IMG/VR virus record: IMGVR_UViG_3300005096_000132
Coordinates: 1 to 36,727 of that record
Source: a virus
Strand: one strand, 5' to 3'
DNA: 36,727 nucleotides
The position numbers and the translations under genes are program-made. Below, in pieces: positions 1,867-28,129 of this stretch; position 1 is the first letter of the stretch; every line of letters starts with the position of its first letter. The notes under the pieces are model-generated. The model saw nothing but the letters and a program-made list of their open reading frames with translations, made no database searches and had not been told where the DNA came from.

Positions 1867-3858
1867 ATGGGTTCAATACCTAAAACTACCGATTTTCTTA
1901 GCATCAAAGAAGCCTCTGAGATAGAAGGCATTTCAAATCGCGCTGTTGAAAAAAACCTCAAAGCCCAAAAATACAACCTTACGCGGCTTTCTGACACCAT
2001 CTCCAAAAATGGGAAACGCCCGACCTTAATCCATATCAGCAGCCTCTCAATTACCGCACAAATCAATTATTACAAGGTACTGGATCAAAACAATGCTACG
2101 CCGGATGCCGTATTTACAAAATCGAGCGAATCTGATCGCATCACAGCCCTCAAGCGACTAAAAATCGTCAATATTGCCTTACCTATTAAAGGAGATACTA
2201 GGAAGCGAGGCGGAAAAATAGAGGCGCTTAGGGTTTTGGCGAACGAAAATGGAACCAGCTACCAAACACTAAACCGATGGATGAGAGACTTTCAAAAGCT
2301 TGGATTTGTCGGCCTTTTACCCAAAGCATCTGATCGAAAATCAAAATTTGAAGGCCAGGTCGTCGAAGCCATCCAGACCGAATGGTTGCAAGATACTCAA
2401 CCCTCGCAAGAAACCGTTTATCAAAAAGTAAATGCCTATTGTTTAAAAAACTTGATTGAGCCGCCATCGTACAAAACAGTCCAACGAATTATCAATAAAA
2501 TCCCGCACGCTGTTACCATTTTACACCAGATGGGTGAAAAAGAATGGCTCTCAAAGTCATGCCCAAAAGGGCAACGCGACATGTCATTGATCTCGGTCGG
2601 CGAATGGTGGAATTCAGATCATCGCGTATTTGATCTATTTGTAAAAGACGGAAACAATATCACGCGTCCTTGGCTTACTTCCTGGTTCGATATGGCGTCA
2701 CGAAAAGTCGTCGGATACCATCTTTCTACAGCCCCCAACTCAAAAACAATCGCGCTGAGTTTTCGCCAAGGAGTCAAAACGCATGGCCGTCCAGATCATG
2801 TTTACATCGATAATGGCAAAGATTATGTTTGCAAATATTTGAATGGCAAAGTGCAACGCTTTGGGAAAATAGACTCTAATATTGATACCGAAGGCGTTTT
2901 CGGCCTGCTTAATTGCAAAATCCACAAAGCCATCCCTTATGCAGCTTGGAGCAAGCCCATCGAGCGTTGGCATGACAATATCAGGGCCTTTGAGCATGCC
3001 TTGCCAGGCTGGTGTGGCAGAGACAATAAAGAACGCCCTGAAAAGTTGCAGTGGGAAATAGATCATAACCAATTACTTACTTTATCAGAATTCTCAGGGC
3101 TTTTCGCAGGCTGGATAGAACAATATAATAATCGACCGTCTACTGCGCTAAATGGCGCAACACCAAATGAAATGTGGAAGGGCATTGTAAGCGTTATCCC
3201 GTCAGACCGAGCTTTAGATGTCTTGTTATTTAAAGTGATGAAACGAAAAGTCGGTCCGCATGGCGTCAGGATATTTCCACCTCGCTACCATTATACACCC
3301 GAATTATCCAATTACATTGGCAACGAAGTTACAGTGCGCTATGACCCCGCCGAAGCCGGGAAAGTCTACATATTTTTAGAAAAAGGCCGGAAATATCTCT
3401 GCACCGCCATTGAACGAAAGTTACTCAAGATGGGTGCCTCAGAAGAAGATTTAAAGGCCTTAGCTAAAGAAAAAAGTCTCGCCAAAAAAGCCGCAAAAGA
3501 ATGGAAGATGAGCAGGATGCAAATCACGCATGACGATACCCACCTTGCCGCCATTATCGCCGCAAAGGAGGGTAAAGGCTATTTGGCTGCAACTTCCTTA
3601 GAAGAAGAAAAGCCTGCCGGGAAGCTTATCTCAATGGTTTCGCGCTTAGACAAAATGGCGAAGGATATTGATGAGAAATCCCCCTTGGCCTCCCTTTTAC
3701 AAAGTGGGGAAGAAATCGAAGTAGAAGCAGATGAAAATATCTTGGGATCATCGGCCTATTTAGAAAATATTCAGGCGCAATTGGCAGAAAAAACACGGTT
3801 GATTGCAGAAAAAAAAGCAGCGGAAGAAGACGAAATGTTGGGGTTTTATCAGCAGTAA
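1867..3858 (+). CDS. MuA-like DDE transposase
   Basis: The product is 663 residues, the usual MuA length. The N-terminus (about 1-75) resembles the MuA DNA-binding region, and 80-220 contains further helix-turn-helix modules (LNRWMRDFQKLG). The RNase H-like catalytic core shows the expected triad: D251 in WWNSDH, D315 in VYIDNGKDY and E366 in PIERWHDN, against D269/D336/E392 in MuA. A Mu-transposase C-terminal beta domain follows (about 460-520), then a helical tail for MuB contact. A half copy of the interspersed G-rich repeat (3676-3712) is translated in frame in that tail (about residues 605-615), adding a SPLASLLQSGEE-like segment. It catalyses integration and replicative transposition. 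Confidence 0.96.
   Translation: MGSIPKTTDFLSIKEASEIEGISNRAVEKNLKAQKYNLTRLSDTISKNGKRPTLIHISSLSITAQINYYKVLDQNNATPDAVFTKSSESDRITALKRLKIVNIALPIKGDTRKRGGKIEALRVLANENGTSYQTLNRWMRDFQKLGFVGLLPKASDRKSKFEGQVVEAIQTEWLQDTQPSQETVYQKVNAYCLKNLIEPPSYKTVQRIINKIPHAVTILHQMGEKEWLSKSCPKGQRDMSLISVGEWWNSDHRVFDLFVKDGNNITRPWLTSWFDMASRKVVGYHLSTAPNSKTIALSFRQGVKTHGRPDHVYIDNGKDYVCKYLNGKVQRFGKIDSNIDTEGVFGLLNCKIHKAIPYAAWSKPIERWHDNIRAFEHALPGWCGRDNKERPEKLQWEIDHNQLLTLSEFSGLFAGWIEQYNNRPSTALNGATPNEMWKGIVSVIPSDRALDVLLFKVMKRKVGPHGVRIFPPRYHYTPELSNYIGNEVTVRYDPAEAGKVYIFLEKGRKYLCTAIERKLLKMGASEEDLKALAKEKSLAKKAAKEWKMSRMQITHDDTHLAAIIAAKEGKGYLAATSLEEEKPAGKLISMVSRLDKMAKDIDEKSPLASLLQSGEEIEVEADENILGSSAYLENIQAQLAEKTRLIAEKKAAEEDEMLGFYQQ
3676..3712 (-). 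repeat. Half copy of interspersed G-rich repeat inside transposase gene
   Basis: This is AAATCCCCC, a C-rich block, then CAAAGTGGGGAAG, the same sequence as the left half of the paired elements elsewhere in the window. It is read in frame within the C-terminal tail of the transposase without creating a stop. Confidence 0.75.
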
Positions 3859-6679: not shown

Positions 6680-6849
6680 AACTGACCTTACGGCATAGAA
6701 TCACATACGAACTTTTTTTCTTTTTCTGGGGCACTCTTCTAAAGAAAAACAAAATAGCCTCAAACTACATCATCCTCGGTCTGCTGAAAATGCGTCTTGA
6801 CCACCCAGAAGAAACACCAAAATTACACAGCAAATACCGACTAAATTAA
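6676..6849 (+). CDS. Small hydrophobic/basic protein, 57 residues
   Basis: This short frame opens with an ATG overlapping the previous stop (ATGA at 6676) and ends at TAA 6847-6849, five bases before a copy of the G-rich repeat. The product has an aromatic stretch (YELFFFFWGTLL) flanked by basic residues, and a second hydrophobic patch (NYIILGLL). It may touch the membrane. The evidence is the coupling pattern and the otherwise unexplained gap; function unknown. Confidence 0.5.
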   Translation: MKLTLRHRITYELFFFFWGTLLKKNKIASNYIILGLLKMRLDHPEETPKLHSKYRLN

Positions 6850-6854
6850 AATCA

Positions 6855-6892
6855 TTTACCCCACTTTGAAAAAGGGGGGCAAGGGGGGATTT
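6855..6892 (+). repeat. Half copy of G-rich repeat supplying a ribosome-binding site
   Basis: TTTACCCCACTTTG, a run of A and G, then CAAGGGGGGATTT. It ends three bases before the gam ATG at 6896, so its last G run lies seven bases from the start codon. Confidence 0.85.
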
Positions 6893-6895
6893 AAA

Positions 6896-7450
6896 ATGCC
6901 ACGCACCAAACCAAAAGACATCGCGCTCACTCGAGCACAGGCCGAAGAAAAAATGCAGCGACTCAATGAAATTGATGCGCAGCTCTTTGATTGGGCCTTG
7001 GCCTACCACAAACAACTAGCCGCCCTTAAGGCCGCCCATACCAGCTCACAAATAAAAGCCGGGAGACCCGTCCTTGAGTTTGAGCGGAAACTGATACTAA
7101 AAGACTTACATTCATGGGCAAAAAAAGATCAGCTCAACTGGAAAACCAAAACCCTTTCTTTTGCTAGTGGAAAAATGGGGATTCGAAAGGGCATGCCAAA
7201 AGTAGATCTCATTAAAAAAATTGCAAAAACATGGGACGAGGCATTGATTCTGCTTATCGATTTTCTTCCGGCTTACAAAAAAAACGTGCCAACAATTAAC
7301 AAAGAAAAACTTATCGCCAACCGTGAAAAAATAGATATTGAAAAGCTTTTAGCCTGTGGGTTGAAGATCGGACAAAAAAAAGAATTTTGGGTTGAAACCG
7401 AAGCATCAGAATCTTTTGATGCCGCCATAAAGGACTTAAAAAATGCTTAA
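6896..7450 (+). CDS. gam: Gam-like host-nuclease inhibitor
   Basis: The product is 184 residues from ATG 6896; an in-frame TTG at 6866 would lie inside the repeat and is rejected. The family pattern is visible: an N-terminal helical segment (RAQAEEKMQRLNEIDAQLFD), the central LNWKTKTLSFASGKMGIRKG strand region, and INKEKLIANREKID near the C-terminus, as in Mu Gam. Gam dimers resemble Ku, bind double-strand DNA ends and block host exonucleases. The ribosome-binding site is provided by the repeat at 6855-6892. It overlaps the next gene by 8 bases. Confidence 0.88.
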   Translation: MPRTKPKDIALTRAQAEEKMQRLNEIDAQLFDWALAYHKQLAALKAAHTSSQIKAGRPVLEFERKLILKDLHSWAKKDQLNWKTKTLSFASGKMGIRKGMPKVDLIKKIAKTWDEALILLIDFLPAYKKNVPTINKEKLIANREKIDIEKLLACGLKIGQKKEFWVETEASESFDAAIKDLKNA

Positions 7451-8090: not shown

Positions 8091-8391
8091 TAAACCGATA
8101 AATATACGACTACAGGTTGCTTTTTCTGCGATTGGGATAGATTTCGCTGCTCGGTCAGCTTCAAAAGTCGCGGTCGAACACTGGAAGAAATATCCACGAT
8201 TAAACAGACCCTATTACACCCGGAAAAAGCCCATCAATTATCCCATTTGTTCGTTTTGCAAAAAAGAAGACCTTGAAAACTACTTTACCTCAAAAAGAGA
8301 CGGTCGTGTCCTTTGTAAGCCCTGTTTTTCCAATCGAGTCGAAAAACAATTGGCAAAAGAAGTCCAAAAGGATAAATCAAATGAAGAATGA
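8083..8391 (+). CDS. Small protein with C-terminal zinc ribbon
   Basis: The product is 102 residues. After an alpha-helical N-terminal half, residues about 64-88 show CSFCKKEDLENYF then CKPC, a two-CxxC zinc site, followed by a charged helical tail. It overlaps both neighbours. The family is not recognised; an accessory DNA- or RNA-binding role is inference from the zinc site. Confidence 0.6.
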   Translation: MNDKPINIRLQVAFSAIGIDFAARSASKVAVEHWKKYPRLNRPYYTRKKPINYPICSFCKKEDLENYFTSKRDGRVLCKPCFSNRVEKQLAKEVQKDKSNEE

Positions 8392-8647
8392 TCCGTTGAA
8401 TAAAAGCAAAAACCCACATAAATTCGAAAAATTCCCTTGCTACACTTGTGGTTATAAATGGGTCAAAGGGGCTCACGGAGGTCATTCCTGTTCAAAATTG
8501 CTGCTTCAGAGGATCAATCGCTTACAAAGCATGCTACGAGGTCGACTTGATTTAATAAAATGCGGGATTGCTCATAATTTCCCTAAAAACAGCCCTTACG
8601 AAAATGACCTTTATACTAGCGTCATTGAATTATTAGATGAAACATAA
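8381..8647 (+). CDS. Cys/His-containing small protein ending in an attC R'' box
   Basis: The product is 88 residues from ATG 8381, overlapping the previous gene by 11 bases; the in-frame start at 8273 would be buried in that gene. CYTCGYKWVKGAHGGHSC (about 18-35) is a probable zinc site. The stop codon TAA (8645-8647) lies within the ACATAAC box that opens the first attC site, just as cassette genes end. Its 5' end, however, is fused to the phage operon and shows no cassette boundary. It may be a phage gene captured at the edge of the array. Confidence 0.6.
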   Translation: MKNDPLNKSKNPHKFEKFPCYTCGYKWVKGAHGGHSCSKLLLQRINRLQSMLRGRLDLIKCGIAHNFPKNSPYENDLYTSVIELLDET

Positions 8648-8725
8648 CGCCAGCATTAACCCACGAACCGATGGCGTGAATTAGACATAAGGTATCGCAG
8701 AGCCGGGTTAAATTTATTGTTAGCA
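8642..8725 (+). repeat. attC-like integron recombination site A (84 bp)
   Basis: R''-like box ACATAAC (8642-8648) and R'-like box GTTAGCA (8719-8725) bracket inner arms TTAACCC (8656-8662) and GGGTTAA (8705-8711), which are perfect complements. Seven unpaired bases on each side separate the outer and inner arms, matching the box/spacer/box layout of attC. Inner CGAT and ATCG can extend the hairpin. The boxes match the consensus RYYYAAC/GTTRRRY imperfectly, so this site is less certain than the two downstream. Confidence 0.7.
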
Positions 8726-8743
8726 CTTTTTAGGGAGAGAAAC

Positions 8744-9076
8744 ATGAAAGACAAAGTTTTGAATTGGTTCGCTCAGGGAGAAATAGGCGTCAGCTCAAAA
8801 ACGATGGCGTGCACTGTTATAGGCATGACTTTAGACGATACTTGGTCTGCATATGAAAATCATCCGTCAGACCCAGATGACTTTCGGCGATGCTTATTAT
8901 TTCTGGAAGCTGTGCCGGAAGCAAGAAGCCATTTTAATAAAATATCAAAGCTGAGCCCCGTATGGGAAAGACTCGTTGATTCGTGGGATGTGCTTGAATC
9001 TCTTCTAAAAGAAGAAATGAGTAAAGGAAACAAAGCACCGAAAACTTATGAAATGATGAAAAATCTAGGTTGTTAA
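8744..9076 (+). CDS. Cassette gene 1: phage-type hypothetical protein
   Basis: The product is 110 residues from ATG 8744, with a GGGAGAG ribosome-binding site. The sequence WFAQGEIGVSSKTMA, HPSDPDDFRRCLLFLEAVPEAR, and the terminal KAPKTYEMMKNL, resembles a protein family seen in many phages and in integron cassettes; function unknown. The gene starts 19 bases after the attC cut position and ends in TGTTAAT, an R''-like box that fits its own leading TTAGCA at five of seven positions. Unlike the early genes upstream, it does not overlap its neighbours. Confidence 0.7.
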   Translation: MKDKVLNWFAQGEIGVSSKTMACTVIGMTLDDTWSAYENHPSDPDDFRRCLLFLEAVPEARSHFNKISKLSPVWERLVDSWDVLESLLKEEMSKGNKAPKTYEMMKNLGC

Positions 9077-9128
9077 TGGCAGGATCAGCCGCCGCACGAC
9101 GACACGGGGTATGGATAGAGGAATTAAG
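9071..9128 (+). repeat. Degenerate attC-like site B
   Basis: TGTTAAT (9071-9077) overlaps the stop codon of the preceding gene, followed by GGCAGGA and TCAGCCGCCGC in the position of the left arm. The right arm and R' box are poor: ATTAAGGC at 9123 is only roughly complementary to the R''-like box. It is best read as a decayed or truncated attC. Confidence 0.4.
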
Positions 9129-9131
9129 GCC

Positions 9132-9326
9132 ATGAAAAATCTTAAACTTTGGATTACGGGGTTTCCTACTGGGGCAGCAATAATCGTAGAAGTCATCAAA
9201 GAAAGAGATGGCATGCCTGGGTTCTTTTATATAAGAAAACCGGGCGGAGGAACGGACACCACAACAAGTGACTTTTTATTTGATATCCCACCGCAGGTTA
9301 CGGCGACTGATATGAGCAAAGCCTAA
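9132..9326 (+). CDS. Cassette gene 2: hypothetical protein, 64 residues
   Basis: ATG 9132 follows a GAATTAAGG stretch. The product begins MKNLKLWITGFPTGAAIIVE and looks like a small, mainly beta-strand protein ending in a polar tail. No family is recognised. Its TAA stop (9324-9326) lies inside a perfect R'' box, GCCTAAC (9321-9327), typical of cassette genes. Confidence 0.6.
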   Translation: MKNLKLWITGFPTGAAIIVEVIKERDGMPGFFYIRKPGGGTDTTTSDFLFDIPPQVTATDMSKA

Positions 9327-9350
9327 CGGATAAATGTTGAGCCGCGAGGC
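9321..9350 (+). repeat. Truncated attC (R''/L'' half only), site C
   Basis: GCCTAAC is an exact RYYYAAC match and is followed by GGATAAAT and GTTGAGCCGCG in the left-arm position. The sequence then breaks off into AGGCCCAAGGAG, the ribosome-binding site of the next gene. The loop, right arm and R' box are missing, so this site should not recombine normally. Confidence 0.5.
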
Positions 9351-9361
9351 CCAAGGAGAAT

Positions 9362-9640
9362 ATGAAAATGGACGATAATATCGAGTCGCGCTCGAACGAG
9401 GTGTTAGATGGTGGGAAATTAAAGACTATTTCGGAAGAAACAGGTGATAATGATTTTGGAAACGCCAAGAAGGGAATGAAGCTATATCAGTGGATTGTAC
9501 GGATGGATAGCATGTTGCAAAGGGATTTGTTTTTGTCAAGGTCATTTTATATCGATGAAATTCATGCTTCTTGCGATTATCCGAAAGATAGACAATATAC
9601 GCTGGTCTGTAAAGCTAAGTGGACTGAAATAGAAATCTAA
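9362..9640 (+). CDS. Cassette gene 3: hypothetical protein, 92 residues
   Basis: AAGGAG (9353-9358) lies four bases before ATG 9362. The product has an acidic, disordered-looking first third, then a soluble domain (KLYQWIVRMDSML, DYPKDRQYTLVCKAKW). No family is recognised. The TAA stop (9638-9640) falls inside ATCTAAC, the R'' box of attC site D. Confidence 0.65.
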   Translation: MKMDDNIESRSNEVLDGGKLKTISEETGDNDFGNAKKGMKLYQWIVRMDSMLQRDLFLSRSFYIDEIHASCDYPKDRQYTLVCKAKWTEIEI

Positions 9641-9723
9641 CGGCAAGCTAACGCGCCGCCCCAAGAGACGAGGTGACTAGGAAGACAGTTTTCTGCGGTC
9701 GCCTGTTCAGCGGATTGTTGGGT
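9635..9723 (+). repeat. attC integron recombination site D (89 bp)
   Basis: R'' ATCTAAC (9635-9641) and R' GTTGGGT (9717-9723) match RYYYAAC and GTTRRRY exactly. The inner arms GCTAAC (9648-9653 region) and GTTCAGC (9705-9711 region) pair with a single unpaired C on this strand, that is, an extrahelical G on the bottom strand, the hallmark of attC recognition by integron integrase. The site has the same length as site E and closely resembles it. Confidence 0.88.
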
Positions 9724-9961
9724 GGAAAATATATTAGACCGGATAACCGGACAGGAACCCGAAAAAACTCCCTGGCCCCATCGTCACACCGGATTTTCTG
9801 GTTGGGAGATAAAATCAAAGTGAACGGGGTAGGGCTAAAGCATATTATCGGCAGGTTGGGGAGACCCATATATTTTTCACCCAACGGCGAGCTAACGCGC
9901 CGCCCTAGGAGACGGTGCAAATAGGAAGACTGCTTTCTGCGGTCGCACGTTCAGCGTTTTG
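9718..9961 (+). mobile_element. Integron cassette without a convincing gene (244 bp)
   Basis: The cassette begins TTGGGT after the G of site D, and its own attC begins ACCCAAC (9879-9885), the exact reverse complement of GTTGGGT. This match between the first and last bases is expected for one excisable cassette. The 155 bases between the sites hold no start codon with a ribosome-binding site followed by a plausible protein. Open frames on both strands run through the attC hairpins and look spurious. It may be a non-coding or regulatory cassette. Confidence 0.7.
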
Positions 9962-9967
9962 TTATAA
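9879..9967 (+). repeat. attC integron recombination site E (89 bp)
   Basis: R'' ACCCAAC (9879-9885) is perfect; R' is GTTATAA (9961-9967). The inner arms GCTAACG (9891-9897) and CGTTCAGC (9948-9955) pair with one extrahelical base. The site shares most of its sequence with site D, including AAGAC and TTTCTGCGGTCGC in the loop region, and has identical box spacing. Confidence 0.88.
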
Positions 9968-9985
9968 ACGATTGGAGCATAAGCA

Positions 9986-10192
9986 ATGATTTCTAAAATA
10001 CAAAGGCAATTGATGGAGCATACAGTTTCTGGCCCGAATAGAAACTGGTTTGGAACTGATAGGGAAAGCAGCGATGGTCTAGAATTTAAAAAACTTGTTG
10101 ATGCAGGACTGGCGACCGCAGAAACCCCGCCGCCATGGATGGGGGATGATGTTATCTACAGGCTCACGCCAGAAGGAAGAGCTATTTTATAA
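9986..10192 (+). CDS. Cassette gene 4: small winged-helix-like protein, 68 residues
   Basis: ATG 9986 lies 24 bases after the attC cut position, with GGAGCAT upstream. The product starts MISKIQRQLMEHTV and ends DDVIYRLTPEGRAIL, the pattern of small winged-helix-like proteins common in phages and cassettes (a helix, then a wing ending in LTxxGR). The stop TAA lies in TTATAAC (10187-10193), the exact reverse complement of GTTATAA at the start of this cassette. The attC that should follow is missing beyond this box. Confidence 0.7.
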   Translation: MISKIQRQLMEHTVSGPNRNWFGTDRESSDGLEFKKLVDAGLATAETPPPWMGDDVIYRLTPEGRAIL

Positions 10193-10193
10193 C
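10187..10193 (+). repeat. Solitary R'' box ending the cassette array
   Basis: TTATAAC is the exact reverse complement of the R' box at 9961-9967, as expected for the R'' box of the same cassette. The rest of the site has been lost: GemA starts 20 bases later. This marks the right edge of the array. Confidence 0.55.
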
Positions 10194-10212: not shown

Positions 10213-10776
10213 ATGAAACGACGGACTGATCAAAACAATCGTATTTGGGGATTGGTTTCAGAACTGGCTCGCCGAGGCGGGCTCAGTAAAGATGAGGCCA
10301 AAAACATCATGCATAGCTACTGCCGCGATTTAGGCCAATCTTCAAGCTCTGCCCTCAGCACCACCCAGGCCGATGCTCTTATCGAGCGACTACGTGAAAA
10401 CATCGACAAAACAAACGTGCCAGAATCAAAAAATGAAATCACAAAAAAACAACAGGACACCTTAAAACATCTTTATGTCGATGCAGGCATTCGAGACCCA
10501 AAAGCTTTTTGCCAACGCATCATTAAAAAAGCATGGCCTCAAACCCGGATAGACGGCATAAAAATGCACAGCGCACTATGCAACATGCTCTGCCGCGAGT
10601 ATCCACGCGATAAATGCCTCTCTATCGTATCGACCCTAAAGAATAGCCCAAAATTAAACACCTGGGAAAAAGGATTTATTGCCGATTTAACCCACCGCTT
10701 CGCCGGCAAAGACAAAGACTTCTTAACAGCCGGTCGCATCGGAAAACTGTTAGAAGTAAAACGAAGAAACCAATAA
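10213..10776 (+). CDS. gemA: GemA-like regulatory protein (DUF1018, Mu gp16)
   Basis: The product is 187 residues. It has the family layout: an N-terminal helical repeat (NNRIWGLVSELARRGGLSKDEAKNIM, AL-STTQADALIERL), a spacer, and a second QQDTLKHLYVDAGIRDPKAFCQRI module near the C-terminus. Mu GemA alters host gene expression and supercoiling. ATG 10213 is preferred to a GTG nine bases upstream, although neither has a strong ribosome-binding site. Its place between the cassettes and mor, and not next to gam, is what exposes the cassette block as an insertion. Confidence 0.88.
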   Translation: MKRRTDQNNRIWGLVSELARRGGLSKDEAKNIMHSYCRDLGQSSSSALSTTQADALIERLRENIDKTNVPESKNEITKKQQDTLKHLYVDAGIRDPKAFCQRIIKKAWPQTRIDGIKMHSALCNMLCREYPRDKCLSIVSTLKNSPKLNTWEKGFIADLTHRFAGKDKDFLTAGRIGKLLEVKRRNQ

Positions 10777-10779
10777 AGA

Positions 10780-10818
10780 TTTTACCCCACTTTGAAAAAG
10801 GGGGGTAAGGGGGGATTT
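10780..10818 (+). repeat. Half copy of G-rich repeat supplying the mor ribosome-binding site
   Basis: TTTTACCCCACTTTG, an A/G run, then TAAGGGGGGATTT. The element ends one base before the mor ATG, with five bases between its last G and the start codon. Confidence 0.85.
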
Positions 10819-10819
10819 A

Positions 10820-11113
10820 ATGAAAACCGAATGGCTCAAAGAAATTAAGCTCAAAGACCTCCCCGACCCCTACCCGGAAATCGCCGAGAAATTTGGCATC
10901 GAAGTCGCAGTCGGCTTAGCATTACATTTTGCAGGCATGGGGCTCTATTTCCCCAAAATAGATTCTGCATTACGAAAAATAAGAAATGAAAAAATACGCA
11001 AAGAATTTGACGGTTGCAACCACCGTATTTTAGCCCGGAAATATGATCTCGCCGAAAGACATGTCCGCCGACTGGTGGATGCAAACGATGATCACCAAAT
11101 CGGAATGTTCTGA
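10820..11113 (+). CDS. mor: Mor-family middle transcription activator
   Basis: The product is 97 residues (Mu Mor has 129). The N-terminal dimerisation part reads PDPYPEIAEKFGIEVAVGLALHFAGMGLYFP, matching the family's LP-x-IA-x-G-x-LA-x-F-G-G-x-x-YxP pattern. The C-terminal helix-turn-helix reads NHRILARKYDLAERHVRRLV. Mor activates the middle promoter of Mu by bridging to RNA polymerase. The ribosome-binding site is the G run of the preceding repeat. A possible target dyad lies downstream at 11148-11159. Confidence 0.88.
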   Translation: MKTEWLKEIKLKDLPDPYPEIAEKFGIEVAVGLALHFAGMGLYFPKIDSALRKIRNEKIRKEFDGCNHRILARKYDLAERHVRRLVDANDDHQIGMF

Positions 11114-14576: not shown

Positions 14577-15247
14577 AGGATCAACTCAGCGTAGATGCAG
14601 GCAAAGGCCACGAGGGTGTCGGCGCGATCGGCAGCGTCGCACTCGCCGAAAAAAGCAATCACAGCACCCTTTGGTATATCGATAAATACGACAGCGATAT
14701 CCACGAAAACAAAGTTAAGACGATTAAACACCTGATTGGCGAGATGTTGATTTTAGCCAATCACCATTGGTCGCGTGGCGATAAAAAGCTGTGGTTTCAC
14801 TATGTGGGCGAAGCTCGAAAGCTCCAAGAAGATGCGCTCAGCCATACTTACGACCACAACATCATCAAATGCAACATCCTCTTAAATGAGGGAATTGACG
14901 AGATGGTCTTGCGGCTTTTAGGGTCTGGTGGCACCGCCTACAACAATGCTACCGCGCAATTAGGCGTGGGTGATTCTCTAACCGCCGAGGACGCGACGCA
15001 AACCGGCCTTCAGGCCCCCACGAACTTCCTCTATAAAGGAATGAATGCCGGATTTCCCACGAGCGGGACACAGCAGGCAACCTGGCAGAGTGATTTTGGA
15101 GCGAGTGAAGCGAACCACTTATGGGCGGAATTCAGCGTGCGAAACGGTGCTACGGCTGACATCAATCTAAACCGCAGGGTTTCAAACCAAGGGACAAAAA
15201 TAAGTCAGCAGACCTGGACGCTGACTTTGGGTATTACTTGGAGCTAA
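14573..15247 (+). CDS. Conserved phage structural/fibre-associated protein
   Basis: The product is 224 residues. The C-terminal two thirds follow a pattern I recognise from many tailed phages: LLGSGGTAYNNATAQLGVGDS, then TGLQAPTNFLYKGMNAGFP, ATWQSDFGASEANHLWAEF, then LNRRVSNQGTKISQQTWTLT. Such proteins sit beside tail-fibre genes and are thought to be virion parts; the exact role is unknown. The N-terminal third is specific to this phage. A paired G-rich element follows one base before the stop codon ends. Confidence 0.72.
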   Translation: MKDQLSVDAGKGHEGVGAIGSVALAEKSNHSTLWYIDKYDSDIHENKVKTIKHLIGEMLILANHHWSRGDKKLWFHYVGEARKLQEDALSHTYDHNIIKCNILLNEGIDEMVLRLLGSGGTAYNNATAQLGVGDSLTAEDATQTGLQAPTNFLYKGMNAGFPTSGTQQATWQSDFGASEANHLWAEFSVRNGATADINLNRRVSNQGTKISQQTWTLTLGITWS

Positions 15248-15351
15248 ATCCCCCCTTGCCCCCCTTTTTCAAAGTGGGGTAAAGGCTTTTTCAGAAAAAG
15301 GAAAACACCGCTTATCTTCCCACTTTGAAAAAGGGGGATTGAGGGGGATTT
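15246..15351. mobile_element. Paired inverted-repeat (MITE-like) element
   Basis: AAATCCCCCC with a C-rich block and CAAAGTGGGGTAAA (15246-15283) faces CTTCCCACTTTG, a G-rich block and GAGGGGGATTT (15314-15351) across a spacer of about 30 bases. Transcribed, it would form a long hairpin. The intergenic stretch to 15369 holds nothing else apart from an AAGGAGGG ribosome-binding site. Confidence 0.85.
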
Positions 15352-15369
15352 AAAAAGGAGGGTTTAAAA

Positions 15370-16785: not shown

Positions 16786-17304
16786 ATGGCGCATCGGACA
16801 CATCATAAGATTGCATCGTATCCACAGGATGTCATTGCTCGTGTCAACGAAATGTTGGTCGCGGGAGATGTGTACACGGAAATTGCGAGCTATTTGGCAA
16901 AAGTCGGTCATCCGACGGGCTCATCTTCTGTCGGACGCTACGCCCAAAACTTTCTAAAGTCTCTCGAAAAAATAAAAATCGTCACAGAGCAATCGAAAGC
17001 AATTTTAGAAACCACCCTCGGCACCGGATTACAGGTTGAAGAAGCTGCCGTGCAAATTGCGCTTTCAAAAATCATGGAATTTTTAATCGACATGCCGGAT
17101 ATCAAAAAAGAAGAAGCCAGCAAAGTTTTCACCGCCCTCGCCAGATTGCAATCAAGTGGTGTACAGCGAGAGAAATTAAAAATCGTTTGGAAAGAAAAAA
17201 TACGAGAAGCTGCCGACGAGATCGAAACAACAGTCAAGAAAAAAGGTTTAACAGACGAAGCAGCGGATGCCATCAAGAAAAAGATTTTGGGGATTGCGGC
17301 GTGA
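16786..17304 (+). CDS. DUF3486 family protein (Mu gp27-like small terminase)
   Basis: The product is 172 residues. The N-terminal helix-turn-helix-like part (VIARVNEMLVAGDVYTEIASYL, then PTGSSSVGRYAQNF) is characteristic of DUF3486: a short region predicting that the protein binds DNA ends. The rest is helical (EEAAVQIALSKIMEFL, EEASKVFTALARLQSSG, REKLKIVWKEKIREAADE). It precedes the large terminase as gp27 precedes gp28 in Mu. The small terminase role is inferred from that position. Confidence 0.82.
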   Translation: MAHRTHHKIASYPQDVIARVNEMLVAGDVYTEIASYLAKVGHPTGSSSVGRYAQNFLKSLEKIKIVTEQSKAILETTLGTGLQVEEAAVQIALSKIMEFLIDMPDIKKEEASKVFTALARLQSSGVQREKLKIVWKEKIREAADEIETTVKKKGLTDEAADAIKKKILGIAA

Positions 17305-17306
17305 TG

Positions 17307-17411
17307 AAATCCCCCTCGATCCCCCTTTTTCAAAGTGGGAAGGCAAATGGAATATCTGTTTTTAACAAAATCCTTTACCCCACTTTGAAAAAGGGGGGCA
17401 AGGGGGGATTT
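17307..17411. mobile_element. Paired inverted-repeat (MITE-like) element
   Basis: AAATCCCCCTCGATCCCCC with CAAAGTGGGAAG faces TTTACCCCACTTTG with CAAGGGGGGATTT across a spacer of about 30 bases. The left end falls three bases after the stop of the preceding gene. The remaining 107 bases before the terminase contain no gene. Confidence 0.85.
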
Positions 17412-17518
17412 GAATTCGCCCCACAAGCCACAACAAAAGGCGATAACGACCAAAGAGACCTTAAGAATTATTAAATCAAAATTAAACGTTTTTAAACGGG
17501 CGTTGAACGGATTCGGCA

Positions 17519-19027: not shown

Positions 19028-20552
19028 TAAAAATAAAAAGACGAATAAAGCCATCACTGACGAAATCGCTTCGGTTGGTACACTCGACATTACGCGGGGG
19101 TATATCGGGCAAATCCTAACAAACCCGGACAGTGTATTGGCGCTGGAGGGTAGCAGCCTCGGCCTGAAGCTTTATGACGATTTGGAGCGAGACGACCGGG
19201 TCTATCCTGTGTTGCAAACGCGTAAAAATGCCGTCTCTGGTAAGGCTTGGCAGATTTTGTCCGCCTCAGAAGATCAGTCGGATATTGATGTGGCGGAGTT
19301 TGTGGAAAACGTATTCCGGGCATTGCCCTTTGGAGATATCATTAAATCTCTACTTGACTCGCGCTTAAAAGGATTCGCCATCGCCGAAATCATTTGGCAT
19401 GTGCGCTTGGACGGCAAAATTGGCATCAAAGAAATTATTGGTCGCGACCAAAGACGGTTTGTTTTTGACCTGGATCGACTCCCGCGCCTCCTTACCCCCA
19501 AGAACCTGATCAGCGGGGAAGAAGTCCCACATCGCAAATTCATTCACTTGGCCTTTGGTTCCAAATTTGGCAGTCCTTATGGTTCAGGATTAGGGTCTAG
19601 GCTCTATTGGCCCTGCTGGTTTAAAAAAAATGGTACCCGATTTTGGGCGATATTTTTGGAGAAATTTGGATCTCCGACCGCAGTCGGGAAATACCCCTCT
19701 GGCACATTAAAAACGCAGCAACAAGCACTATTAGAAGCCATGGCCGCAATTCAAAATGAGTCTTCCGTCAAAATTCCAGACAATATGACCATCGATCTAC
19801 TCGAGGCCAGCAGGCAAGGTTCGACAGATAGTTATGAAAAATTTATGAATTATTGGGATAAGGCGATCTCAATTGTTGTCCTGGGCCAAACCCTCACAAC
19901 AGATGTAGGTGATTCGGGGTCTCGAGCCCTTGGTGATGTTCACAACGAAGTGCGGCACGATCTGGTCAAAGATGATGCAGACGACATTTCTGAGGTGCTT
20001 AGTTGCCAATTGATCCCCTGGCTCGTCGATTTCAATTTTGCAGGTGTAGTTGAATACCCAAGGTTTTCAATTGCAACCGATCCTAAGAAAGACACAAAGG
20101 CATTGGCCGAACGAGACGTCCTTCTAATAGAGAAGGTAGGTCTTCCTGTCAGCGAAGATTATTTTTATAAGACGTATGACATCCCCCGCCCCGAAGCAGG
20201 TGAAACCCTGGTGCAAGGGCCAAATCCCCCTCAGTCCCCCTTTTCCAAAGGGGGAAGCTCTCAGCTTTTACCCCACTTAGAAAAAGGGGGGCAAGGGGGG
20301 ATTTATTTTGCAAGGGATAAAGATCAGCAGGCCGACAAGCTCGATCCCTTTGTCGATCAGGCGATGGAAAAAGTAAACCTTGACCCGATCATTGATCCAA
20401 TCAAAAAACTCACAGAAGAGGCCACAAGCCTCGAAGAACTCAAAGAGATGCTTTTAAAGGAATACGAAAACATCGACCCGGTGCGCCTGGGCGATCTTAT
20501 CCAAGAGACTCTGGCCACGTCCGAATTATTGGGGAGGTTTGAAGCGGAATGA
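19020..20552 (+). CDS. Portal protein, DUF935 (Mu gp29-like)
   Basis: The product is 510 residues from ATG 19020; a more upstream in-frame start is inside the terminase gene. Family segments include LTNPDSVLALEGSSLGLKLYDDLERD, KNAVSGKAWQIL, LDSRLKGFAIAEIIW, KFGSPTAVGKYP and VVLGQTLTTD, then GDVHNEVRHDLVKDD. Twelve copies form the DNA entry ring. A complete 83-base MITE-like element (20222-20304) is inserted in frame and adds about 28 residues (PPQSPFSKGGSS... GGQGGIYFAR) between a conserved core and the acidic C-terminus. The stop overlaps the next ATG. Confidence 0.92.
   Translation: MADKNKKTNKAITDEIASVGTLDITRGYIGQILTNPDSVLALEGSSLGLKLYDDLERDDRVYPVLQTRKNAVSGKAWQILSASEDQSDIDVAEFVENVFRALPFGDIIKSLLDSRLKGFAIAEIIWHVRLDGKIGIKEIIGRDQRRFVFDLDRLPRLLTPKNLISGEEVPHRKFIHLAFGSKFGSPYGSGLGSRLYWPCWFKKNGTRFWAIFLEKFGSPTAVGKYPSGTLKTQQQALLEAMAAIQNESSVKIPDNMTIDLLEASRQGSTDSYEKFMNYWDKAISIVVLGQTLTTDVGDSGSRALGDVHNEVRHDLVKDDADDISEVLSCQLIPWLVDFNFAGVVEYPRFSIATDPKKDTKALAERDVLLIEKVGLPVSEDYFYKTYDIPRPEAGETLVQGPNPPQSPFSKGGSSQLLPHLEKGGQGGIYFARDKDQQADKLDPFVDQAMEKVNLDPIIDPIKKLTEEATSLEELKEMLLKEYENIDPVRLGDLIQETLATSELLGRFEAE
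20222..20304. mobile_element. Paired inverted-repeat element inside the portal gene
   Basis: AAATCCCCCTCAGTCCCCC with CCAAAGGGGGAAG faces TTTTACCCCACTTAG with CAAGGGGGGATTT, here with a spacer of only about 9 bases. The whole unit is read in frame without a stop, which makes it a translated insertion. Confidence 0.85.
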
Positions 20553-24477: not shown

Positions 24478-24484
24478 ATCTCTC

Positions 24485-24522
24485 ATCTTCCCACTTTAAC
24501 AAAGGGGGATCGAGGGGGATTT
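24485..24522 (+). repeat. Half copy of G-rich repeat
   Basis: ATCTTCCCACTTTAAC, AAAGGGGGATCGAGGGGGATTT. It lies 20 bases upstream of the next start, which has its own AAGGAG, so here it does not set the ribosome-binding site. Confidence 0.8.
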
Positions 24523-24542
24523 AAACCAAAAGGAGAAACAAA

Positions 24543-25146: not shown

Positions 25147-25593
25147 ATGGAAACTCTTTTAAAAGCAATTCAAAGTGCGATTAAAAACGATTTAAACCTT
25201 GCTGAATTAAAAGGCCAGATTTACATCGTTCCGGAGGGGCTGGACGAATTTATTCTCACCGATGAGGCGCGATTGCCGTTTGTCACACTAAAAGATTTCG
25301 GTGAGCAAATACAATATTTGCCTGCCAAGAGGGAGCGTATTGTGCGCGTCGTGCAAATCGCTCCTTATTTAGAATTTATGGAAACAGAAAAACAAATCAT
25401 CGGCGACAACGTCAGGCAAGGATTGATAAAAATTGTCCGCCTGCTTAAAGCCCTACTACTCAATAATTTTTTAAACGTGCCAGGCGTAATGAACGCAAAA
25501 ATCACACAAATTGAACACATTATTATAAGCGCCCACAAAGGTCGACTGGTCGTCAAAAAAGCAATACAAGTGAGTTACACCATCCACCAATAA
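25147..25593 (+). CDS. gp37-like tail-terminator/connector protein
   Basis: The product is 148 residues. It has an alpha/beta layout (LPFVTLKDFGEQIQYL, RIVRVVQIAPYLEF, GRLVVKKAIQVSYTIHQ) with a final strand ending in a YT(I/V) motif, as in tail-terminator folds. Its position between the gp36-like gene and the tail tube gene is that of Mu gp37 or a tail terminator. I do not have stronger residue evidence. Confidence 0.55.
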   Translation: METLLKAIQSAIKNDLNLAELKGQIYIVPEGLDEFILTDEARLPFVTLKDFGEQIQYLPAKRERIVRVVQIAPYLEFMETEKQIIGDNVRQGLIKIVRLLKALLLNNFLNVPGVMNAKITQIEHIIISAHKGRLVVKKAIQVSYTIHQ

Positions 25594-25634
25594 TCTTTTA
25601 CCCCACTTTTAAAGAAGGGGGCAAGGGGGGATTT
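25594..25634 (+). repeat. Half copy of G-rich repeat supplying a ribosome-binding site
   Basis: TCTTTTACCCCACTTTTAAAG, AAGGGGGCAAGGGGGGATTT. The element ends directly before ATG 25635, leaving four bases between its last G and the start codon. Confidence 0.82.
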
Positions 25635-25985
25635 ATGAACTGCAAATTAGAATATTTACCTAAAAAAGGACAACAAATTATCCATGGTGTCGGCACCTTT
25701 GGCGCGACAAAAATCAACAGAGACGCGATGACGCATTACCATGCAGACTGCGCCAAAGCTCATGTTCAAAAAAAGACTCCACCCAAAGTCCCGAAGCCAA
25801 AACGGATTACGATTTTGCCTTGCTCTGAAACAATCGCCCGGCAATTTTTAAAAGATGAACGATTTAAGGTCCACGGACTGGTCTCCACTCCACCACAGAC
25901 TTCTACCCTCCCCCAAAAAAATGAAGCTGTGAAAAACGGGGGCCAGTCCTTAGACCAAAACAACAAAAAGAAAGGCGGTAAATAA
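25635..25985 (+). CDS. Hypothetical protein, 116 residues, before tail tube gene
   Basis: The product has an N-terminal segment with two cysteines and histidines (NCKLEYL, MTHYHADCAKAH), a basic proline-rich middle, then a disordered lysine-rich end. No family is recognised. Its stop overlaps the next start (TAATG). The ribosome-binding site is provided by the repeat. Confidence 0.55.
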   Translation: MNCKLEYLPKKGQQIIHGVGTFGATKINRDAMTHYHADCAKAHVQKKTPPKVPKPKRITILPCSETIARQFLKDERFKVHGLVSTPPQTSTLPQKNEAVKNGGQSLDQNNKKKGGK

Positions 25986-27130
25986 TGGGTGATTATATTA
26001 CAGGCGATGAATGGCAGGCATTTGTCCTAGAGCAAACAACTTTTTTGGGCTTATTGCATCCTGCGGCAAATCATGCGTTTGAGTTTATTGACGCGACAAT
26101 TACCCCGCAGGAAGAACGGAAACCGCGCGACGATAATCGCGGTACAAATTCGCGTGGCGAAACCATTCGTCTGAAAAAATCAGGCTCAGTGACGATCAAT
26201 GCCTACCTCAAAACATCAGGATCTTTAGGTGTGCTTTCGGACATGTCGCCTTTTGAAAAACATGCTTATGGTGCGCAAGCCGTTAATGGTGGGGCAAGTA
26301 TTGTCAACTCTTTAGCCAAAAACCCCGAAGATACGCTATTTGGATTGTCAGTCCATTTTATGGCTGATTTTACCGCTTTCCACTGTAAGGGCTGCGTAGT
26401 GCAATCCATTGTTTATGATTTGCCAGGCGATAATGAGGCCACTATGGCCATCACTTTGGATTGTGCTGAGATCATCCAAACAGGTGCTTCTACTGTACAG
26501 GCCATTTTAAGCGGCGGAGAATCTTCGTTTACCCCAGCATTTATCGATATCACCAATTTTTCAGCAGGATCAAAAGTGGATATTGGATCATCCACAGGTC
26601 ATATCGTTGGGTCAGAACCTTCTGGAGGATCTGTATCCATTAATCCAAATATTGTGGGTGCTCAGGCAATCAATTCAGTGATCGGCCCGACGATTATCGC
26701 CGGGACCCCTGTAAATAGTGATCCGATCTCGGGCATTGCGGGCTCTTATAAAATGGATGCACTCGATGTGCAGTCGATCTCGCACAAAATCACTGTCACC
26801 TGCAATCGCACGATCCGAAATAAAACCTACGGCACAGCTATCCCAGACGGTTATTACAGCGGGAAAAAACGTGAAATTACCTTTGAAAGCATGTTGATTT
26901 TAAGCCGCCCCAATATGAGATATGCCACAGGTGCACAGAAGCTAGTGCAGTACGATTTGGAGTTAGTTGCAGGTGATACGGCAGGAAGTCGGGTGCGATT
27001 CGATATGAATAAAGTCGAATTCGACATCCCTGAAATTGCGACAAATAATGAAGATGAAGCTGAAGTCACAGTCAGTGGGTATGCGTTGCCGACAAATGAC
27101 GAAGACGAGATGACGCAGACTTATGATTGA
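25985..27130 (+). CDS. Major tail tube protein (siphovirus type)
   Basis: The product is 381 residues and beta-rich, with charged turns. AFEFIDATITPQEERKPRDD and KKSGSVTINAYLKTSG fit tail tube proteins of transposable siphophages, and the second half has another beta domain (KITVTCNRTIRNKTYG, LVQYDLELVAGDTAG). It lies before the chaperone and tape measure genes, the standard tail tube position. No sheath gene is present, so the tail should be non-contractile. Confidence 0.72.
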   Translation: MGDYITGDEWQAFVLEQTTFLGLLHPAANHAFEFIDATITPQEERKPRDDNRGTNSRGETIRLKKSGSVTINAYLKTSGSLGVLSDMSPFEKHAYGAQAVNGGASIVNSLAKNPEDTLFGLSVHFMADFTAFHCKGCVVQSIVYDLPGDNEATMAITLDCAEIIQTGASTVQAILSGGESSFTPAFIDITNFSAGSKVDIGSSTGHIVGSEPSGGSVSINPNIVGAQAINSVIGPTIIAGTPVNSDPISGIAGSYKMDALDVQSISHKITVTCNRTIRNKTYGTAIPDGYYSGKKREITFESMLILSRPNMRYATGAQKLVQYDLELVAGDTAGSRVRFDMNKVEFDIPEIATNNEDEAEVTVSGYALPTNDEDEMTQTYD

Positions 27131-27132
27131 GG

Positions 27133-27247
27133 AAATCCCCCCTTGCCCCCCTTTTTCAAAGTGGGGTAAAGGCTTGGGGGAAATCTTTTTTTAATGAAGT
27201 ACTCCTTTTGTCTTCCCACTTTAACAAAGGGGGATCGAGGGGGATTT
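27133..27247. mobile_element. Paired inverted-repeat (MITE-like) element
   Basis: AAATCCCCCCTTGCCCCCC with CAAAGTGGGGTAAA faces TCTTCCCACTTTAAC with GGGGGATCGAGGGGGATTT. The spacer is about 38 bases. It starts two bases after the tail tube stop and ends 19 bases before the next start. Confidence 0.85.
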
Positions 27248-27266
27248 AAACGAGGGAGCAACCAAA

Positions 27267-27662: not shown

Positions 27663-28018
27663 AAGCGGCAAAGGATCGATGGACACAAGATGCGTGTGAA
27701 GAAAAGGGGTTGACCTGGAAGCGCAATTGTTTTGATGAAGGCAATCAAAAATACAAAAAACCACTCGGCGGTGGGCTAATACTGCATGAGTGTCCGGCAA
27801 CCTATATCACAGATACATCCTGGTATTTTCTCAATCTTTTTTGGGACTGCCATAGCCAAATGCCAACAGGCTTTGGCTCCGGGATTGTTCGCCACTCGCT
27901 TCCGAAATCCGGCGGTTTGCAAGATCAGGATAATCTCGAAATGGACGCTTTTAATGTGATTCAGGCTGAGGCTTTGGTGGTGCTTAATCCGCCGCCGAAG
28001 AAAGAAGTGAAGAAATAA
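27267..28018 (+). CDS. Tail assembly chaperone (GT-type frameshift product)
   Basis: A -1 slip on A-AAA-AAC (27629-27635) joins the first 123 codons to the frame that runs to 28018, giving about 250 residues. The downstream frame has no stop back past the slip site and no good start of its own: its only early initiator, TTG at 27710, has no ribosome-binding site. The added part (KGLTWKRNCFDEGNQKYKKP... AEALVVLNPPP) links to the tape measure in related systems. The ratio of the two forms is not predictable. Confidence 0.7.
27629..27635 (+). promoter_or_regulatory. Programmed -1 frameshift slippery site
   Basis: A-AAA-AAC in the reading frame of the upstream gene (codons AAA AAC re-pair as AAA AAA). 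This is a classic -1 heptamer, found exactly where a tail-chaperone frameshift is expected. Confidence 0.7.
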
Positions 28019-28124
28019 ATCCCCCCTTGCCCCCCTTTGTCAAAGTGGGGTAAGGGCTTTTTAAAAATAAAAGGAAAACTCCTTCTATCTTCCCACTTTG
28101 AAAAAGGGGGATCGAGGGGGATTT
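28017..28124. mobile_element. Paired inverted-repeat (MITE-like) element; right end supplies ribosome-binding site
   Basis: AAATCCCCCCTTGCCCCCC with CAAAGTGGGGTAAG faces ATCTTCCCACTTTG with GGGGGATCGAGGGGGATTT. The left end overlaps the stop codon of the chaperone (TAA 28016-28018). The right end lies five bases before the tape measure ATG. Confidence 0.85.
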
Positions 28125-28129
28125 AAACA

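Follow-up and report, generated by a model that had tools for sequence, protein, structure and literature searches.

The window analysed here is the complete IMG/VR virus record IMGVR_UViG_3300005096_000132, 36,727 bp in length. Profile searches identified MuA, MuB, Gam and Mor in it, together with a terminase, portal, protease and capsid of Mu type, and since MuA, MuB, Gam, Mor, terminase, portal and capsid follow one another in the Mu order, the record is that of a Mu-like phage. Between the early gene at 8381-8647 and a GemA-like gene lies a block of small genes and attC sites, and the record holds no integron integrase; the block is thus a cluster of attC sites without an integrase (CALIN). 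The genes relevant to the locus are as follows.

1867-3858, plus strand: MuA-type transposase, backbone (phrog_310, E 6e-102; PF09299 and PF02914)
6866-7450, plus strand: Mu Gam-like end-protection protein, backbone (PF07352, E 3e-10, above the cut-off; phrog_491, E 3e-10)
8381-8647, plus strand: early gene upstream of the array, an open reading frame that shares 11 bases with the gene before it and whose TAA ends at the insertion point
8738-9076, plus strand: first gene of cassette C, 112 aa (phrog_1229, E 1.5e-37)
9132-9326, plus strand: second gene of cassette C, 64 aa, an open reading frame with its TAA in a box, exactly at the cassette boundary
9362-9640, plus strand: gene of cassette B, 92 aa, an open reading frame with its stop at the cassette boundary (weak match to phrog_12105, E 0.023)
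9986-10192, plus strand: gene of cassette D, 68 aa, with its stop at the cassette boundary (phrog_13561-like, E 1e-7)
10213-10776, plus strand: GemA-like gene, the first backbone gene past the array (PF06252 GemA, E 0.0046, below the curated cut-off; positioned before Mor)

An earlier note, made from the DNA letters, had described the genes of this block as spaced apart and those on either side as overlapping or abutting, and its description holds: gaps range from 20 to 345 bases inside the block and from -34 to +43 outside it, with one exception of 307. When the block is excised in silico, the stop of the upstream gene and the start of the GemA-like gene come to lie 20 bases apart, as elsewhere in this compact operon. 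The GC skew of the block is 0.181, compared with a mean of 0.020 and a maximum of 0.159 in 643 other stretches of 1545 bp, and the GC3 skew of the cassette genes is +0.08 to +0.45 against -0.13 for the phage genes. The block is compositionally foreign to the phage.

The viral contigs contained no close relative of the transposase or of the GemA-like protein, and the stretches found through the terminase (L002-L010) are without attC sites and include no empty insertion site. Reverse transcriptase genes are annotated in two other Mu-like phages, Shewanella phage MuM16-1 (L082, 18697-21970) and Chromohalobacter phage YPCBV-1 (L084, 34205-35573), in the latter next to an Avd gene of a diversity-generating retroelement. 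A dispersed repeat of about 48 nt, CCCCACTTTGAAAAAGGGGGGCAAGGGGGGATTTAAA and its reverse, is also present in the window at least ten times, at 6848-6895, 10774-10821, 15245-15354, 17302-17414, 20217-20307, 24478-24525, 25590-25637, 27128-27250 and 28012-28127. Most copies are intergenic and lie just 5' of start codons, one is in frame within the portal gene, and that at 10774-10821 spans the interval from the GemA-like gene to Mor, directly past the cassette block. The repeat is possibly a host-type mobile palindrome that has colonised the phage, and as such a clue to the host.

The attC sites and their detection

The sites were located with a covariance model (CM) built from known integrons. 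A search for the integron integrase in 274 gammaproteobacterial genomes gave 110 positive genomes at E<=1e-40; the regions upstream of intI served as training arrays, in which box-and-arm scans yielded attC candidates in known cassette orientation, and the model was made from an alignment of 52 attC sites from integrase-adjacent arrays. In this alignment 86.9% of the cells are paired (71% after shuffling) and the covariation score is 0.388 (0.130 after shuffling). Run on the window with filters off, the model returned four attC sites of 22.5-38.6 bits, all on the minus strand, the fifth-best match in the 36.7 kb reaching 14.4 bits.

8642-8725 (CM 8640-8727), minus strand: attC of cassette C, 22.5 bits, E 9e-4; R'' TGCTAAC, R' GTTATGT
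9321-9409 (CM 9319-9411), minus strand: attC of cassette B, 34.0 bits, E 1e-6; R'' ATCTAAC, R' GTTAGGC
9635-9723 (CM 9633-9725), minus strand: attC of cassette A, 38.6 bits, E 7e-8; R'' ACCCAAC, R' GTTAGAT
9879-9967 (CM 9877-9969), minus strand: attC of cassette D, 31.8 bits, E 4e-6; R'' TTATAAC, R' GTTGGGT

In the CM alignment all four carry R''/R' and L''/L' boxes with the consensus RYYYAAC/GTTRRRY. The earlier note had placed attC sites at 8642, 9635 and 9879 and had staked its proposal on their scoring with such a model; all three are present and score, and its tally of three was too low by the site at 9319-9411. The likeness that it saw between two 89-base sites is borne out by an 81-nt repeat of 83% identity, at 9639 and 9883, that is common to both.

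A comparison with other Mu-like phages covered 17 stretches (Mu and 16 others, 395 kb in all), none of which contains a match at E<=1, so that chance is excluded as the source of the sites in the window. Their scores fall within the range of real arrays. As a control, the model recovered three matches of 35-40 bits in phage TJE1, two of whose attC sites recombine with IntI1 according to the available text of PMC9892861, in which flavobacterial phage P12002L was also assayed. The model finds no attC in P12002L and can therefore miss attC sites of other types.

The integron integrase profile TIGR02249 has no match in the 36.7-kb record; at low stringency it also picks up ordinary tyrosine recombinases, as seen in control genomes, and such matches were left out as evidence. 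A complete integron comprises intI, attI and Pc, of which intI is absent here, and the four attC sites lie within 1.33 kb, where at least two within a few kb define a CALIN. Rfam has no match in the window. Several simpler searches were set aside: an exact-pattern scan for the attC core in genome contigs gave five matches that were judged by context to be chance; among viral contigs the left-arm exact pattern of the core gave none, and the right-arm pattern five, none of them an attC by the model; a BLAST search with one of the sites against 398 genomes of one phylum gave a single partial match of 30 nt, where the model finds no attC; and a box-pairing score that ignored strand proved too noisy.

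Cassette units, orientation and cargo

With boundaries at 8647/8648, 9326/9327, 9640/9641, 9884/9885 and 10192/10193, the block divides into four units.

8648-10192, minus strand: the whole array (CALIN), four cassettes, 1545 bp, supported by four minus-strand attC sites, own-box complementarity, GC skew and the compact junction after excision
8648-9326, minus strand: cassette C, 679 bp, delimited by the G^TT positions of two consecutive R' boxes; R'/R'' match 5/7 with its own box, 4/7 with the neighbour's
9327-9640, minus strand: cassette B, 314 bp; own 7/7, neighbour 5/7
9641-9884, minus strand: cassette A, 244 bp, without a convincing gene; own 7/7, neighbour 5/7
9885-10192, minus strand: cassette D, 308 bp, with the start box TTATAAC at 10187-10193; own 7/7, neighbour 3/7

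A circular cassette has an R' box at its start and an R'' box in its own attC, and these two are expected to match. In 66 known cassettes the match with the own box was higher than that with the neighbour's in 44, equal in 20 and lower in 2. The same own-box complementarity identifies the units in the window as cassettes; it does not bear on polarity, because the box pairs are identical in either reading. Boxes like the one that starts cassette D number four in the whole window. Cassette A is bounded by an 18-nt inverted repeat (9717-9734/9868-9885) that is 94% complementary and extends well past the 7-nt R boxes, and its open reading frames on both strands match no family. All genes that reach a boundary (8381-8647, 9132-9326, 9362-9640 and 9986-10192) stop there with TAA. 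The earlier note had counted five successive stops in R''-like boxes; those at 8647, 9326, 9640 and 10192 are indeed in R-type boxes and that at 9076 is not, which leaves four genes, and the boxes are R' rather than R'', the attC sites being on the minus strand.

The polarity of the sites follows from their asymmetry. Experiments have shown that extrahelical bases and the central spacer fix which strand of an attC recombines (Bouvier 2009, PMC2727003). In known arrays, read in cassette orientation, an independent scan found the left arm to carry the extra base, and 121 of the 125 CM matches there lie on the expected strand, the other 4 being lower-scoring counterparts of true sites. At the sites of the window the left (L'') arm has the extra base in the minus reading, in which a C precedes GTT at all four sites and the R''-L'' spacer is A-rich at three of the four (AATCC, AAAAC and AATAA; ACCTC at site B). 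The cassette genes are on the plus strand, as the phrog_1229 and phrog_13561 matches indicate, the second of them backed by homologues of 67-68% identity, and the minus-strand open reading frames of the array match no family. The usual layout of an integron cassette, in which gene and attC run in the same direction, is thus absent here: given extrahelical bases and central spacers on the minus strand, the cassettes hold their genes in inverted orientation, and the boxes at the stop codons are R' boxes. The array of attC-type sites that the earlier note proposed between gam and gemA, without an integrase, is therefore upheld, and its plus-strand layout of gene followed by attC is replaced. Among 79 cassettes of known arrays whose orientation is clear, the longer open reading frame runs along the attC in 74 and against it in 5, a rate at which reversal of all three gene-bearing cassettes of the window has a probability of about 3e-4 (arithmetic from the 79 cassettes). 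Through this reversal the genes are co-directional with the phage early operon.

Judged by their sequence matches, both recognisable cassette genes are phage-type cargo. The phrog_1229 family is widespread, with 240 phage and 133 plasmid records, and occurs once in the 274 gammaproteobacterial genomes, without an attC; the AlphaFold model of this protein is of low confidence (pLDDT 62). For the 68-aa protein, viral contigs L095 and L096 encode homologues that are 68% and 67% identical, and neither this protein nor the 92-aa protein was found in the 274 genomes. No relative of the recognisable genes lies beside an attC among those examined, the 64-aa gene (9132-9326) matches no family, and searches of the cassette genes with PADLOC and NCBIfam gave nothing solid. 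At 9362-9411 the 92-aa gene has its ribosome-binding site (AAGGAG) and start codon within the attC of cassette B, so that any hairpin formed by the site in mRNA would cover the start of translation.

Origin of the array and comparison with known systems

Taken as a whole, the locus is probably a four-cassette CALIN in the early operon of a Mu-like phage, captured through IntI and kept where its genes are directed with the operon. The phage may have lysogenised or infected a host that carried an integron, whose IntI would have acted in trans to recombine cassettes into the phage, singly or as a block, at a G^TT site overlapping the stop codon of the upstream gene. Because the box rebuilds this stop codon (TAA/C), the upstream gene would have stayed intact after insertion. 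Arrays or cassettes with genes facing away from the attC polarity would then have been retained, since these alone would be read from the phage early transcript. Any host IntI that acts on folded single strands would be able to remobilise the array. Mu replicates from its left end. If this phage does likewise, the bottom strand of the attC sites, which is the phage plus strand, would be expected to form the lagging-strand template. A more far-reaching version, which we regard as rather unlikely, is that integron cassettes are a plug-in format for accessory genes of the early operon, in which insertion at TAA/C would be neutral, inverted cassettes would be selected, replicative transposition would lay bottom strands bare on the lagging-strand template, and host integrases would swap cargo between chromosome and phage.

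How active the sites may be is bound up with the most serious alternative, that of an old array, perhaps acquired from a host integron through homologous or illegitimate recombination, in which the attC sites are dead and the genes ordinary cargo. Such a history is possible, though not probable. The predicted folding of the bottom strand agrees with it, the four sites being about as stable as shuffled DNA (z about 0), where known attC sites have a mean z-score of -3.8 and those of TJE1 range from -1.9 to -7.9; the sites may therefore be poor substrates, weakly active or fossils. At each site the bottom strand is the lower in energy, by 0.1-2.7 kcal/mol, and at 9321-9409 the L-box stem forms in both strands, with the R boxes paired as well in the plus strand, the bottom strand of this attC. 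The missing integrase, the identity of just 83% between the two similar sites and the commonness of the cargo genes among phages likewise suit a fossil; against decay stand R and L boxes, extra bases and own-box complementarity that are all intact, and CM scores like those of real arrays.

The remaining alternatives question the orientation of the cassettes, or that they are cassettes at all. That they are ordinary plus-strand cassettes, each a gene followed by its own attC, is very unlikely. Many forward cassettes do have stops in such boxes, as at 8647, 9326, 9640 and 10192 (46 of 74 known forward cassettes end no more than 12 nt from the start of the attC), and the box pairs between sites are complementary in either reading; yet with filters off the model has no plus-strand match there at E<=10, all or most of the sites carry their extra bases and AACAA/CGTT spacers on the minus strand, and the last cassette (9986-10192) would be left without an attC. 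It is highly improbable that native phage genes are separated by attC-like palindromes with another role among the early genes, for instance as weak terminators or as RNA hairpins. Those cassette genes for which relatives are known are of phage type, and attC sites have been suggested to act as weak terminators (quoted in the available text of PMC9892861), but RNA hairpins need no complementarity of own-cassette boxes, extrahelical bases or spacer asymmetry, the relatives of these genes that were examined are without attC sites, and the block is foreign in composition. A chimeric assembly of a phage contig and an integron fragment is hardly credible: the locus is known from one metagenomic record, of which no second copy was found, but at both ends the joins are exact, being placed at G^TT, on a stop codon and 20 bases ahead of a start codon, as would be unlikely by chance.

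The CALIN adds a transposable, Mu-like phage to those that bear integron cassettes, and each replicative jump of such a phage could move the array to a new place. Every gene of the array points against its attC, and all of them run with the phage operon. The array offers a concrete test case for whether cassettes can be exapted into an operon outside integrons and moved by host integrases, and suggests that phage cargo genes circulate as cassettes.

The earlier note knew of no described example in this group of phages. For Mu-like phages this stands as far as the literature was searched (titles and abstracts, with subscription papers sparsely covered), no other integron or attC case having been found; for phages at large, attC clusters without an integrase were published in 2023, with 17 in 10,705 genomes (Qi et al. 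2023, PMC9892861, available text). These phage CALINs, such as that of Tetrasphaera phage TJE1, the one described there in full, resemble the array in the window in having small genes between the sites and, for TJE1, in the range of CM scores. They differ from it in that the genes and attC sites of TJE1 run in the same direction, and the main text of that paper includes no Mu-like phage; the array described here also lies within an early operon and has exact boundaries. Sedentary chromosomal integron arrays share its attC boxes, extra bases, own-box complementarity, gene-less cassette and units of 0.24-0.68 kb, but possess intI and attI, of which intI is absent from the window, and have forward genes in 74 of 79 clearly oriented cassettes. 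An atypically oriented component is also found in Treponema integrons, in which, in the available text of PMC3607928, it is intI that lies in the cassette direction, so that the integrase is turned there and not the genes within cassettes. The early (semi-essential) region of Mu itself has variable small accessory genes in the gam-gemA interval (Mu record), as does the window, and differs, along with the 16 other Mu-like stretches, in having no attC.
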